From: Clostridia bacterium
GTDB taxonomy: Bacteria; Bacillota; Clostridia; Christensenellales; Borkfalkiaceae
Direction: 5' to 3'
Length of the DNA stretch: 64,000 nucleotides
Assembly (NCBI GenBank): GCA_017468085.1
Contig: JAFUJR010000037.1
Span: 1-64,000, forward strand
The notes under the pieces: generated by a model
The model's input: only the letters and a program-made list of their open reading frames with translations
The model's database searches: none
Told to the model about the DNA's origin: nothing
Translations under genes and position numbers: made by a program
Part shown: positions 51,063-55,556 of the stretch, one piece after another
Position numbering within the stretch: the stretch's first letter is position 1
Layout of the letters: every line of letters starts with the position of its first letter

Positions 51063-52730
51063 TTATAAGCCTAAAATTGCGACGGATAAACCGCAGAATA
51101 AGATGACCGAAACAGCGTCGACAATCGTCGTGATAAACGGATTTGCAACGACGGCGGGGTCAAGTCTGCAAAGTTTTGCCAAGAGGGGTAAGAGTGCGCC
51201 CACCAATTTCGCTACGATCACCGTGCAGAAAAGGGCGAGGGAAACGACGGCGCAAACGTCCCAAGTGTAGCCTTCCATTTGCAACAGCATTCCGTCTAAA
51301 AATCTGAGTTTTAAGAAGCACGCCGCCGCCAAGGTCAAACCAAGTAAAATCGCCGTGCGGAATTCCTTCCAAAGCACCTTCCACACGTCGCGGATTTCCA
51401 CTTCGCCAAGGGAGAGGGCGCGGATGACGGTAACGGACGCCTGTGAGCCAGAATTACCGCCCGTACCCATGATCATGGGTACGCAAGCGACGAGGCAAGC
51501 CACCAAAATCTGTTCGAAATGGTTTAAGATAAGCCCCGTAAACGTCGAGCCGAGCATCAAGATCAACAGCCACAAAACGCGCGTTTTCCAAAGAGTGAAC
51601 ACCCCCGTTTTTAAGTAGGGTCTATCCGTCGGCGTGATAGCCGCCATTTTGGCGATATCCTCGGTGTTTTCTTCTTGCAGGACGTCGATAGCGTCGTCGA
51701 TGGTAACGATACCGACAAGCCGCATTTCTCTATCTACGATAGGCAGAGCCAAAAAGCCGTAATCGGAAATCTTGTTTGCGACCTCTTCCTTATCGTCCTC
51801 GGTGTAGGCGTAAATGACGTTTTCTTCCATGATGTCGGAAACGAGCGCCGTCTTTTGCGCCAACATCAAATCCTTTGCCGTTACAAGGCCGAGGATTTTG
51901 TTTTTCTCGTCTACGACGTAGCAGGTATAGATGGTTTCCTTGTCGATGGCGGTGCGGCGAATACGCTCAAACGCGTCGTCTACCGTCATGGTGGGGCGCA
52001 GGGAAACGAATTCTATCGTCATAATACTGCCCGCGCTATCCTTGGGGTATTTCAAAATTTGGTTGATGTATGCACGGGTTTCGGCGTCGCTTTGCGCCAA
52101 GACGCGCTTGACCACGCTTGCCGGCATTTCTTCGATGAGGTCAACCGTATCGTCCAAAAACAGTTCGTCAAGGACGTCCTTCAATTCTCTGTCGTTTAAT
52201 TTATGGATGAGTTTTTGCTGTACGTCGCTATCCATTTCGACAAAGGTTTCCGCCGCCAGATCCTTAGGGAGTATGCGGAACAAAATCAGCAAATCGGCGT
52301 CTTTTTCCGTCCCCTCGAAAACCTCGGCAAGGTCGATGGCGTTCATATCGGCGAGCAGGGGCTTTAATACGGCGTAGTTGCGTTCTTCAAGCAGCTTTAA
52401 AATGTCGTCTACTTCGGCGATACGTCTGACGATTTCCTGCGGCATATCTTCGATGATTTCTACGGTGTCGTCGACGGAAATCTCGTCCATCACCTTTTCC
52501 AGCTCTTCGTCGCGAAGCCCGCCGATAATTTTTTCTTGTAGGTCGCTGTCTAAAAGCAAAAGCGCGTCGGCAAGCTGTTCGCTGTCGAGCGCATGACAAA
52601 AAGGAAGAAGATAGGCTTCTTCTACCTCGTTGATGAGCGCGGCAAGCCGTTCGTTTTCATACTTTTCTACGAACTCTGCCGCGGCTTGATAATTTTGAGC
52701 TTCTAAAAGCTCTGATAATTCCTTTTGCAT
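51063..52730 (-). CDS. mgtE: MgtE magnesium channel with duplicated N-domain
   Basis: A 555-residue magnesium channel, about 100 longer than usual MgtE (near 450). The MgtE_N superhelix is present twice: residues 61-107 (DSDLQEKIIGGLRDEELEKV start) and 167-213 (DSDVQQKLIHKLNDRELKDV start) align almost residue by residue, each with a DDTVEIIEDMP-like motif. Two CBS domains follow (about 240-360), then five membrane helices with the ion-path motif PMIMGTGGNSGSQAS. Cytoplasmic domains of MgtE close the pore at high magnesium. ATG 52730 has the ribosome site GAGG. A small leader ORF lies 60 bases upstream on the same strand. Confidence 0.94.
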   Translation of the reverse strand: MQKELSELLEAQNYQAAAEFVEKYENERLAALINEVEEAYLLPFCHALDSEQLADALLLLDSDLQEKIIGGLRDEELEKVMDEISVDDTVEIIEDMPQEIVRRIAEVDDILKLLEERNYAVLKPLLADMNAIDLAEVFEGTEKDADLLILFRILPKDLAAETFVEMDSDVQQKLIHKLNDRELKDVLDELFLDDTVDLIEEMPASVVKRVLAQSDAETRAYINQILKYPKDSAGSIMTIEFVSLRPTMTVDDAFERIRRTAIDKETIYTCYVVDEKNKILGLVTAKDLMLAQKTALVSDIMEENVIYAYTEDDKEEVANKISDYGFLALPIVDREMRLVGIVTIDDAIDVLQEENTEDIAKMAAITPTDRPYLKTGVFTLWKTRVLWLLILMLGSTFTGLILNHFEQILVACLVACVPMIMGTGGNSGSQASVTVIRALSLGEVEIRDVWKVLWKEFRTAILLGLTLAAACFLKLRFLDGMLLQMEGYTWDVCAVVSLALFCTVIVAKLVGALLPLLAKLCRLDPAVVANPFITTIVDAVSVILFCGLSVAILGL

Positions 52731-52790
52731 AATACTCTACCTCTTAGTTTTTTTGACTGAAACTGCGGGTAGCGTATCCTCGTGGAGCAA

Positions 52791-52874
52791 TTACCGTTTA
52801 CGTCGTAAGAAGAAACGGCGCAAAGACGGCGCGTTGCTTAGCGGGTCTACGCTTGGGTGATAGTCTGCTGTCAT
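52791..52874 (-). CDS. 27-residue leader peptide upstream of mgtE
   Basis: A short ORF on the mgtE strand starts with ATG at 52874 behind a strong AAAGGAGG (spacing 13) and ends with TAA at 52793-52791, 60 bases before mgtE. The peptide has an N-terminal half with Asp and Pro (D4, P7, D10, P11, P16) and a very basic end LRRFFLRRKR. Leader peptides with acidic/Pro codons and a basic end are known for Mg transporter genes in enterobacteria (MgtL before mgtA), where ribosome instability at low Mg turns on transcription. The stop codon CGG-TAA can pair with a downstream TACC. The role is inferred. Confidence 0.62.
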   Translation of the reverse strand: MTADYHPSVDPLSNAPSLRRFFLRRKR

Positions 52875-53126
52875 AATAAAAACCGTTCCTCCTTTTATTT
52901 TTTTTTTTAGAAATACGTATATACTTCGCAATACTTCGTTGTCGCTCCGCGCCCCTTGCTCACGTACGGCAAGGCTGAGCCTTGACCCAGTTTTACCGCT
53001 TGCCGCCCGTTCTTTTACGGGGCGAGCGGGCGGTATGGGCGGTTGGTTTCAAACAAGTTTTATGTGGCTGAGGTTTGACCCAGTTTTACCGCGCTTTTTT
53101 CGCCCTATAATTATTATAAGCAAAAA
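52875..53126. repeat. Leader upstream region with family 2 copy D and direct repeats
   Basis: Family 2 start ACGTATATACTTCGCAATAC lies at about 52915-52934. Two 26-base direct repeats (GGCTGAG..TTGACCCAG and TTTTACCG) lie at 52973-52998 and 53066-53091 with two differences. A GC-rich inverted repeat (CCGCCCG/CGGGCGG, about 53003-53032) is between them. No clear mgtE promoter was found, and no gene. Confidence 0.6.
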
Positions 53127-55556
53127 TCAGTTTTGCGTTTCGTCGTTCTTGCGCTTTTTCAAAATCAATATATCGACGAGGATGCAAATGACCGCCGTAC
53201 CCAAAATGAGGTAAACAAGGCGGAAAATACTGTCGTTGTTCGAGGTGAGGCTACCATAGGTGAGCTGCTCGGGAATGGGCGTCGTTGCGCTGAAATCGGT
53301 TACGTACGCCTTGGGGATAAAGCCCGTTTGGCGCACGCCGTTTTCGTCCACGTAAGCGACGTGGTAATAGGGGTGGTCGAGCTTATCGATTTCGCCGAGC
53401 AAGGTGATTTGCATATCCGCATTCAACCTCGACGCGGTGAGCAGGGAATTTAAATAAGGGAACTTATAAAGGAAAACCGCGTTAGTGAGATAGCCCGTTT
53501 TTTCGCTGTCGTAGTCAGAGCGGTATTCTTCGGCGGGAAGCTCGTTACACTGCGTTTTGAGGACGAGGCAGGTTTGATATTCGTGCGTTTCCTCGTTGAA
53601 AATCGCAAGGGCGTTGTGCTTTTCCGTTTCCCCGATTTTTAAGGCGGTGAAGGGCATTGCTCTGCGTTCAAAGGAAAGGTAAGGGAATTCCGTTGCGCCC
53701 TCTAAGGCGTTAATATCGAAGTAGACGGTCAACGCGTCGGGTTGGGTCTGCACGACGGAGAAAGTCGCGCTCTCTTTGGCGAAAATACTTTCGTCCGCGC
53801 CGTTTACCGCTATCGTTTTTACGGTGGGCAGATTTAAAAGCGCGGTCTGCGCCATATAATTTTCGGCGTACAAAACGTAGGTTTTGTTTTCTTCAATGCC
53901 GAAAGTGAAAGCGGTTACCGTCGTTTGGGCGGAAGCCGTATAAACGAGGGGGTCGTTCAGCCCGTACTGCGTGGGCGTTTCCCCGTCAAGTTTATAAAGT
54001 TTTCCCTCTATCAAAGCGTAGAGGTTGCCCTCGTAATCGACGGAAATTTTCTTTGCGTTTTGGGGCAGATTGCCGTACACCTCCACGCCGTCCTCGTTTT
54101 CGGAAAGAAACTGCGCCTCGGTGTAACGATGGATTTTTGCGCCGCTTGCGACGTACAGATTTCCGTAAGCGTCAGCGGTCAAAAGTGAGGGGATACGGGT
54201 GGCGGCGCGCTTGGTTTCCGCATATTGCCATTCGCCGTTTTCGTCCGTGCCGATAAGGTAGTGCGAGTAATTGTCCAAAGCCAAATAATACTTACCGTAC
54301 ACGCTTGCCGCGCCGACGATATTGCCGATAAAATCGTCAAATTCCGCAAGTTTTTCGCCGTACGTTTCCGATTGCAGACTGTACAAAATCGCTTGGTCTT
54401 GGTTGGCAACGAGTAAAGTGTTGCCGTCGGAAACGAGCCTTTCGGCAATCAATTCGTTTTCGATAGGGGTTTGGAAATTGTCCGTAGCGGTGTCGAGGAC
54501 GGAAATGCGCTTGTTTCCGTTGTCGGCAATGAGCAACAGATTATCTGCAAGGCAGACGTCCGCCGCGTCGTTTATACGGTTAACGGAAGAGGAGCGGTTG
54601 CCGATTTCACGGTCAGTGAAATCGCAGTCGGTTAAGTTGAATTCACGCACCGAATTGCCGTCCACGGCGTATACGGCGCCGTCAAATACGGTGAGGGCGG
54701 AAAATTTGCCGTCCGTTTTGTTGAGCGGCGCGAGGGAATTTTCGTTGATGATGCTTGTCGTCGCAAGCTCGGTCAAATCGTAGGCGTAGAAGGTTGCAGG
54801 GTCGTTCGTGCTCGTGCAACAGAATACGCCGTTTACGATACGGATAGAGGAAAAAGCGGAGAAGTTGTCGAATACGGCGACGGTGGACGACGCGTCTTGG
54901 GCGGATTGCGCTTGTAAATCGATTTTCCGCAAATTATTGCCGGACGTATAGTACAACTCGTTTTCGTATACGGCGATGGTGGGTTTGCCCGAAAGGTCGC
55001 TCTTTAAGGTTTTGGCGTGGGTTACGTCAATATCGTAAGCGAGTAAATCTAACTGCGAAAGCTGAGTGGTGGAGGCTTTCGTGTCCGTGAAATACAGCAT
55101 ATCGCCGTGCAGGTAGAAGGTCGTGCAAGGGAAACTTGTGTTCTTCACCGTCGGGGTAGGCTCGTCCAAGGTATTCGGCGCGAGGATATAAAGATAAGTC
55201 GCGTCGAGGAAATATAAATTTCCCGTTTCGTCAAATTGTAATTTGGTAACGTTGTTTTTTAAGGGGTCGGAGTTTACGTTGTGGACGTATTCGCGATATA
55301 CCCCGTCTGCTTGGTCGTAGACGTAGATGACGTTTCCGTCTGCAATCGCCGTGTAGTCCTCGTTAACGGCAACGTCGGTGGGGGCGTTGAGGTCGAGGTA
55401 CTGCTTGTAGGAATCAGGCAAAAACAGAGAGGCGGCGGGGATAGGCTCGAACGCGTTTGCCGTTAGATTTTTTTGGACAAGCGAAAGCGCCGCGCCCGAA
55501 ATGGAGCACGCTGCCAAAGAAAGTATACAAATCATCGTCGTCTTAAAATTCTTCAT
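53127..55556 (-). CDS. Exported propeller-like protein with SH3-like domain and C-terminal anchor
   Basis: An 809-residue envelope protein. The N-terminus is a signal sequence (TTMICILSLAACSISGAALS). Most of the protein is made of repeated short beta units (for example DAYGNLYVASGAKIHRY, DYEGNLYALIEGKLYKLDGE, NGVFCCTSTNDPATFYAYDL), which look like an NHL- or WD-type beta-propeller. From about 690 an SH3-like domain follows (YLTNAVFLYKFPYLNSLLTA, GFIPKAYVTDFSA), then a membrane helix near the end (FRLVYLILGTAVICILVDIL) and a basic tail. A short related protein is encoded at 56503. Function unknown; likely wall or surface. Confidence 0.75.
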   Translation of the reverse strand: MKNFKTTMICILSLAACSISGAALSLVQKNLTANAFEPIPAASLFLPDSYKQYLDLNAPTDVAVNEDYTAIADGNVIYVYDQADGVYREYVHNVNSDPLKNNVTKLQFDETGNLYFLDATYLYILAPNTLDEPTPTVKNTSFPCTTFYLHGDMLYFTDTKASTTQLSQLDLLAYDIDVTHAKTLKSDLSGKPTIAVYENELYYTSGNNLRKIDLQAQSAQDASSTVAVFDNFSAFSSIRIVNGVFCCTSTNDPATFYAYDLTELATTSIINENSLAPLNKTDGKFSALTVFDGAVYAVDGNSVREFNLTDCDFTDREIGNRSSSVNRINDAADVCLADNLLLIADNGNKRISVLDTATDNFQTPIENELIAERLVSDGNTLLVANQDQAILYSLQSETYGEKLAEFDDFIGNIVGAASVYGKYYLALDNYSHYLIGTDENGEWQYAETKRAATRIPSLLTADAYGNLYVASGAKIHRYTEAQFLSENEDGVEVYGNLPQNAKKISVDYEGNLYALIEGKLYKLDGETPTQYGLNDPLVYTASAQTTVTAFTFGIEENKTYVLYAENYMAQTALLNLPTVKTIAVNGADESIFAKESATFSVVQTQPDALTVYFDINALEGATEFPYLSFERRAMPFTALKIGETEKHNALAIFNEETHEYQTCLVLKTQCNELPAEEYRSDYDSEKTGYLTNAVFLYKFPYLNSLLTASRLNADMQITLLGEIDKLDHPYYHVAYVDENGVRQTGFIPKAYVTDFSATTPIPEQLTYGSLTSNNDSIFRLVYLILGTAVICILVDILILKKRKNDETQN

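Follow-up and report, generated by a model that had tools for sequence, protein, structure and literature searches.

A conserved short leader ORF before mgtE in Clostridia: a candidate ribosome-based attenuator of a magnesium channel

A short ORF lies directly upstream of mgtE

The window, by which we mean the whole 64,000-nucleotide stretch of DNA analysed here, belongs to a genome bin of 2.06 Mb that is 82% complete; among named contigs, the nearest are from metagenome-assembled Clostridia, often with titles that give the gut of roe deer, sheep, goat or water deer as the source. Its minus strand carries, at 51063..52730, a gene for a protein of 555 residues that matches the TIGR00400 mgtE equivalog with 453 bits (cut-off 233) and contains the Pfam domains MgtE_N, CBS and MgtE. 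Both assignments agree with the mgtE that the original prediction had placed here; the gene is not mgtA, which encodes a P-type ATPase. The bin holds a second MgtE protein (G000:C23:40385-42049) identical to the one encoded at 51066-52730, and the two leader regions differ by one base; this second copy probably reflects a duplicated contig or a mixture of strains.

Directly 5' of mgtE and on the same strand is a predicted ORF of 27 codons, MTADYHPSVDPLSNAPSLRRFFLRRKR (52791..52874), conserved in relatives. Its ATG lies at 52874 and its TAA stop ends at 52791, leaving 60 nt to the mgtE ATG at 52730. The ribosome site of this leader, AAGGAGG (52888..52894, minus strand), is strong, yet sits 13 nt 5' of the ATG. 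The ORF, its Shine–Dalgarno sequence (SD), the spacing and the strand are all as originally described from the sequence. Acidic and proline residues are found at D4, P7, D10 and P11. Further upstream, an ORF of 809 amino acids (53127-55556, minus strand) has no Pfam or NCBIfam match at E≤0.001, and an 18-base repeat, ttgacccagttttaccgc, occurs at 52982-52999 and 53076-53093, between that ORF and the leader.

The window was searched with covariance models, including that of the M-box, the ykoK leader RNA (RF00380) that can control mgtE-type genes. No Rfam family reached threshold, and the M-box gave no match at E≤10 in 52600-53150, so that an M-box or other known RNA was rejected here and its absence, noted earlier by eye, is borne out. 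No intrinsic terminator was found in 52600-53200.

The leader is conserved within the genus

After removal of duplicates, 39 mgtE upstream regions were available from the window's genus (g1). An ORF with a ribosome site was called in 37 of them, the two mgtE genes with none being those at L012 and L037. Dinucleotide shuffles of the same genus produced an ORF with an SD in 10% of cases, in a group that, like the g1 group of the promoter counts below, still included two loci of another family that the 39-locus count excludes: L050, from genome G606 of that family, and L046, whose leader is nearly identical and which did not turn up when the genus was searched. A search of 57 genomes with the core pattern gave 20 matches, all 20 directly 5' of mgtE and two of them being both copies in the window's genome; the reversed pattern gave none. 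The conserved leader ORF is not a product of chance.

Genus leaders are 22 to 35 codons long, their stops lie 47-139 nt from mgtE in all 37 cases, and length changes in the middle of the ORF preserve the frame. Asp occupies codon 2 or 3 in 29 of the 39 upstreams. DYH occurs within the first seven residues of 25 of the 37 leaders, and the full motif of the window, DYHPSVDPLS, in nine; other leaders begin MDNLSSNGVIPL, MDSLSSISVPL, MDDRSRGDDKPGL and similar. The tails diverge: the nearest relative ends SLSPFFLGLKR where the window has LRRFFLRRKR, and other tails vary too. The original prediction had likened the layout to that of enterobacterial MgtL, with Asp/Pro codons in the first half and an Arg-rich end. 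Asp and Pro codons do occur in the window's leader, and many relatives begin MD-x-[DE]-P-L-P; a conserved Arg-rich tail had to be rejected. In this genome the sequence that encodes it is the strand predicted to pair with the leader's own ribosome site.

Leaders of different sequence precede mgtE across the class and phylum samples

We extended the comparison to 228 mgtE upstream regions, chosen manually among the matches listed (at class level usually one or two from each family) and hence not random samples. An ORF was called in 165 of them, some of these calls being doubtful, and none in the remaining 63. Asp stands at codon 2 or 3 in 98 of the 228, in otherwise different sequences. Beside the genus, these come from other families of the order (19/40), the class (31/60), Tissierellia and other named contigs (8/10) and the phylum (10/20); the genera g7, g9 and g12 contribute one in 38, and g5, g6, g10 and g18 none in 21. 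In dinucleotide shuffles of the sets other than the phylum sample the feature appeared in 0.5–1.6%.

Two Asp-type starts are common, MD[SP][EGD]PLP (hereafter the PLP type) and MD[AS]GSS (the GSS type). Class sequences begin MDSGPLP, MDPVPLP, MDPEPLS or MDAGSSSG, named contigs MDSEPLP or MDSGPLP, the phylum sample VDPLPRRLTS or MDPSPLPSS, and other families of the order MDAGSSxG, MDVHLCDGDDIGRSS and others. Tissierella creatinophila DSM 6911 (L060), which is in culture, carries a related leader that begins MILEPVPKP. The MD[SP][EGD]PLP and MD-x-[DE]-P-L-P starts are what we take to be close to the letters of enterobacterial MgtL. A third kind is found in the sister genus g9, in one g12 genome and in two genomes of family f3, where leaders begin [V/M]KGRSS or near it. 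Of 33 such g9-type leaders, 32 start with KGRS or KVRS, and neither Asp nor Pro occurs there.

A 30-letter pattern of the MD-x-x-P-L start had 14 matches in 293 class genomes, and every one adjoined a listed mgtE (reversed control, 0); since part of these sequences had gone into making the pattern, it is the absence of matches elsewhere that counts. The g9-type pattern matched 12 times in 347 order genomes, nine times beside mgtE and three times elsewhere, with nine matches for the reversed control. A 15-base GSS-type pattern was discarded as too short (27 matches in 98 genomes, at least two beside mgtE; reversed control, 11). Judged by these comparisons, the leader is not confined to this genome and occurs through the class and the phylum sample.

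An M-box was present in 22 of 120 scanned loci. In the window's family it was found in six of six scanned loci of g6, one of three of g5 and the single locus of g18; g1 and g9 mostly carry the leader. Eight of the 22 loci (L056, L058, L193, L198, L202, L235, L245 and L249) have both, with an Asp2 leader stacked between the M-box and mgtE. M-box and leader substitute for or accompany each other before mgtE. Other RNA elements were seen near this gene. Two leaderless mgtE genes of g9 (L085 and L086) have an FMN riboswitch some 900 nt upstream, and at L248 an Rfam T-box match lies within the 701-base stretch containing an MDDGP leader and mgtE, but on the other strand.

The start of the peptide appears to be under selection

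Single-base codon differences were counted between leaders of the same type, and these pairs are not independent counts because of shared ancestry: 434 synonymous against 206 non-synonymous for PLP-type codons 2-7 (synonymous share 0.68), 259 against 159 for GSS-type codons 2-6 (0.62), 325 against 62 for g9-type codons 2-5 (0.84), 82 against 41 for codons 2-4 of 23 DYH-type g1 leaders (0.67), and 16 against 29 for codons 2-8 of the VHLCD leaders (0.36), where the bias is weak. At equal rates the expected shares are, in the same order, 0.25, 0.22, 0.25, 0.18 and 0.19, and with a transition weight of 4 they are 0.31, 0.27, 0.29, 0.25 and 0.28. All four TCN codons are used at Ser3 of the PLP type and all four codons at Pro7, as are all four for Ala3 and for Gly4 of the GSS type. 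Comparison of the codons thus indicates selection on the peptide start in four leader types (PLP, GSS, g9 and g1). Conservation in relatives and a synonymous bias, whose absence would have refuted the earlier proposal, were both found, so that the proposal is not refuted on this count.

Three covarying helices would connect the leader with the mgtE ribosome site

Since variable lengths made a consensus fold of whole alignments weak, RNA pairing was assessed by comparing the duplex energy of native segment pairs with that of segments taken from different genomes, in 2000 permutations. Three helices emerged. In H1, the leader SD and spacer (52882..52894, minus strand) pair with a segment inside the ORF tail (52807..52819, minus strand); z was -10.8 in 35 g1 sequences and -5.3 in 31 of g9, with 0/2000 permutations in both. 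In H2, the ORF core AGCGTA (52848..52853, minus strand, with further pairs drawn beyond) pairs with TACGCT (52771..52776, minus strand, with further pairs up to 52790) of a segment complementary to the mgtE SD, the anti-SD (z -6.7 in 35 g1 and -10.5 in 31 g9 sequences; 0/2000 in both). In H3, the anti-SD GATACGCTACCC and the bases following it (52760..52778, minus strand) pair with 52731..52750 (minus strand), which contains the mgtE SD AAGAGG (52745-52740); here z was -3.0 in g1 (2/2000) and -4.9 in g9 (0/2000). H2 and H3 are mutually exclusive because both use the one anti-SD.

Examples of the pairings in g1 are AACGG/CCGTT, AACGATC/GATCGTT and AACAATC/GATTGTT. The 19 GSS-type sequences gave -8.9 for H1, -4.6 for H2 and -5.4 for H3, all at 0/2000; the pre:tail value of this type is only -1.0 by itself because its H1 arm sits in the last 36 nt ('end'). 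Among 27 PLP-type sequences H1 was recovered (z -7.8, 0/2000), and the core pairing of H2 was not found (core:tail +1.1, core:end +0.2). Values for the tail/end and end/mgtE-SD segments of these two types, which partly overlap, are left out. As for pairs outside the proposed helices, pre:post, core:sd2, pre:sd2, tail:sd2 and mid:sd2 ranged from -1.4 to +2.0. Lower values for core:tail (-4.0 and -4.3) and for pre:mid in g1 (-7.9) come from segments that share sequence with each other or with the H1 arm, and those for mid:post and tail:post in g9 (-5.4 and -6.1) from what is there the inner part of H2, the g1 value being +1.1. Taken by comparison among genomes, covariation supports all three helices, with H2 and H3 as alternatives to each other, in g1, g9 and the GSS type.

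In the window, the minimum-energy fold consists of H1 and H3, whose duplex energies (-18.2 and -16.2) are similar to that of H2 (-17.2). The window's fold as a whole is no more stable than that of shuffled sequences (z -0.64).

Ribosome-masked folding and promoter-like sequences

We modelled a ribosome on the leader by blocking its footprint in equilibrium folding, and read out the mean unpaired probability of the mgtE SD. For the g9 type this was 0.37 unmasked, 0.44 with the ribosome at codon 1 and 0.30-0.31 at codons 7-9. PLP-type leaders went from 0.36 unmasked to 0.50-0.52 at codons 1-5; their value of 0.91 at the stop codon is trivial because the footprint then covers the SD. The GSS type gave 0.31 both unmasked and at codon 1, falling to 0.24 at codons 5-15, and shifts in g1 were small (0.27 unmasked, 0.31 at codon 1, 0.25 mid-leader). 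With the window's own sequence, exposure of the mgtE SD was unchanged, at 0.41 for every position. The direction of these shifts, in a model that ignores kinetics and pseudoknots, agrees weakly with a scheme in which an early halt or drop-off switches mgtE on and elongation switches it off.

Promoter-like -35/-10 sequences (at least 10 of 12 positions, within 110 nt before the leader) precede 25 of 33 g9-type and 18 of 22 order-level leaders, against 0.6% and 2.3% of shuffled sequences. By the same criterion they are uncommon in the g1 group (4/38; shuffled 1.1%) and in the class group (7/39; shuffled 3.8%). No promoter of the g9 kind is present in the window.

A proposed attenuator and its alternatives

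We favour, with moderate confidence, a translational attenuator in which the progress of a ribosome on the leader sets translation of mgtE, low magnesium being the likely signal. Ribosomes would translate the leader ORF. H1 and H3 would make up the OFF fold, in which the leader's tail covers the leader ribosome site and the anti-SD covers that of mgtE; in the ON fold, H2 would tie the anti-SD to the ORF core and so release the mgtE SD. As long as a ribosome is moving along the core, H2 would be blocked and mgtE off, while one held or lost in the first codons would allow H1 to open and H2 to form. Low magnesium, by weakening ribosomes on first codons that contain Asp and Pro, may provide the signal. 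The ON logic of an early halt is carried over by analogy from MgtL and mgtQ (below), and a magnesium response of the leader is likely. We infer leader translation, the ON and OFF assignments, drop-off and magnesium sensing from these comparisons, and translation of the leader probably sets the amount of channel made. The output is probably initiation of mgtE translation, rather than Rho as for MgtL, because that is where the helices point. Several of the results above weigh against the model: g9-type starts with neither Asp nor Pro, the core pairing missing from the PLP type, the unchanged SD exposure and ordinary fold stability of the window's own sequence, its lack of a g9-like promoter and the rarity of such promoters in the g1 and class groups, the slight synonymous bias of the VHLCD leaders, and the mgtE upstreams with no leader ORF.

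The same attenuator might answer a cue other than magnesium, such as slow decoding of rare codons (CGA, AGT, CTA) or translation capacity, mgtE then following ribosome content. We consider this unlikely, although codon use lends it some weight. In codons 2-16 of the leaders at 136 loci, the window included, Arg is encoded by CGA in 79 of 150 cases against 63 of 1307 (4.8%) in mgtE, counts that are not independent, the loci sharing ancestry; after Gly or Asp in the leader head, CGA accounts for 58 of 70 Arg codons, and CTA (43/130) and AGT (159/322) are also enriched in the head and not in the tails. The KGRSS leaders, with no acidic or proline start, fit such a cue and speak against acidic/Pro drop-off as a universal sensor. 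Set against this are the identity of the downstream gene, a magnesium channel; the M-box, a magnesium sensor, in the same place in relatives; and MD-x-[DE]-P-L-P starts that presumably resemble MgtL.

More doubtful still is direct binding of an ion by the RNA itself, in the manner of a riboswitch, with the ORF being secondary. The covariation of three helices fits such an RNA, as does a core that in g1 is strongly conserved at the nucleotide level, but it would account poorly for the synonymous bias, the in-frame length changes, the conserved start codon and SD, or an Asp at codon 2 or 3 that recurs in upstreams of otherwise different sequence, and no Rfam family matches. A constitutive leader that senses nothing and serves only to couple or enhance translation of mgtE is the least probable reading: many PLP-type leaders stop at the mgtE SD, as in simple translational coupling, and lack a detectable H2, but exclusive H2 and H3 pairings are preserved by covariation in the g1, g9 and GSS types, and in g1 the leader stop is set apart from mgtE by the 47-139 nt given above.

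Beyond the attenuator itself, a wider scenario could well be right but is, in our judgement, a little more probably wrong. Ribosome-based magnesium sensing of mgtE would be old and widespread in Bacillota, acting through many fast-diverging leaders whose starts converged on a near-MgtL MD-x-[DE]-P-L-P; it would alternate or be stacked with the M-box, and some genera would have switched to a nascent-chain or rare-codon cue (KGRSS with CGA).

Relation to known systems

In ermC-type translational attenuators, a ribosome that stops within the leader exposes the SD of the main gene; the helix geometry proposed here would be compatible with this arrangement, and the masked-footprint folding is weakly supportive.

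In enterobacteria, MgtL is reported to be a peptide on whose EPDP motif ribosomes drop off at low magnesium, with efficient translation being repressive (PMC11282234, PMC11552253), and there is a stem A that hides the uORF SD of mgtA and corA at high magnesium (PMC11552253). The mgtL of mgtA in Escherichia and Salmonella (PMC11282234, PMC11552253) shares with our leader a short ORF before a magnesium transporter gene, alternative folds and a uORF SD hidden by a stem; its acidic/Pro start (EPDP) has counterparts in the Asp-type leaders and none in the g9 type. It differs in that mgtA encodes a P-type ATPase, in Rho-dependent transcription termination and in belonging to another phylum, whereas the site hidden here would be the mgtE SD. 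For mgtQ, in the Salmonella mgtC-mgtB spacer, Asp2 and Glu5 and a switch between 1:2 plus 3:4 and 2:3 pairings that releases the mgtB ribosome site are reported (PMC8092293). A short ORF with Asp2 and the 1:2 plus 3:4 versus 2:3 logic are shared (PMC8092293); mgtQ, however, has eight codons, lies inside an operon and serves another transporter family, and in our leaders the ON pairing would be made by the ORF core and not by the H1 tail strand. The corL uORF of corA likewise is reported to lower a magnesium transporter when translated (PMC11552253), but is Rho-dependent, precedes a CorA channel and has fewer acidic and proline residues.

The M-box controls mgtE-type genes and precedes mgtE in relatives of the window, but unlike the leader it is an RNA aptamer; it is absent from the window and stacked with the leader in the eight loci above. 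A mycobacterial M-box is reported to control a uORF (PMC12810186). The mgtE motif of Thioalkalivibrio, too, is a folded RNA, in which a stem has the SD and start codon of mgtE at its base; it is a riboswitch candidate confined to that genus, and the available text mentions no leader ORF (PMC11109978). That of a survey that includes Clostridium novyi makes no mention of magnesium (PMC6429828). In the literature searched, with subscription journals mostly outside its coverage, there was no report of an mgtE leader peptide in Clostridia; the Thioalkalivibrio motif and the mycobacterial M-box came nearest.

If the attenuator proposed here operates as outlined, it would explain how mgtE may be controlled in Clostridia whose mgtE has no M-box, and at the stacked loci a single gene would be preceded by a tandem of magnesium sensors of two kinds. 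The leaders would also offer many natural variants of a ribosome-sensing peptide for comparison. A ribosome translating a short peptide would then be a general bacterial gauge of magnesium, reached independently in two phyla and in front of unrelated transporter families.
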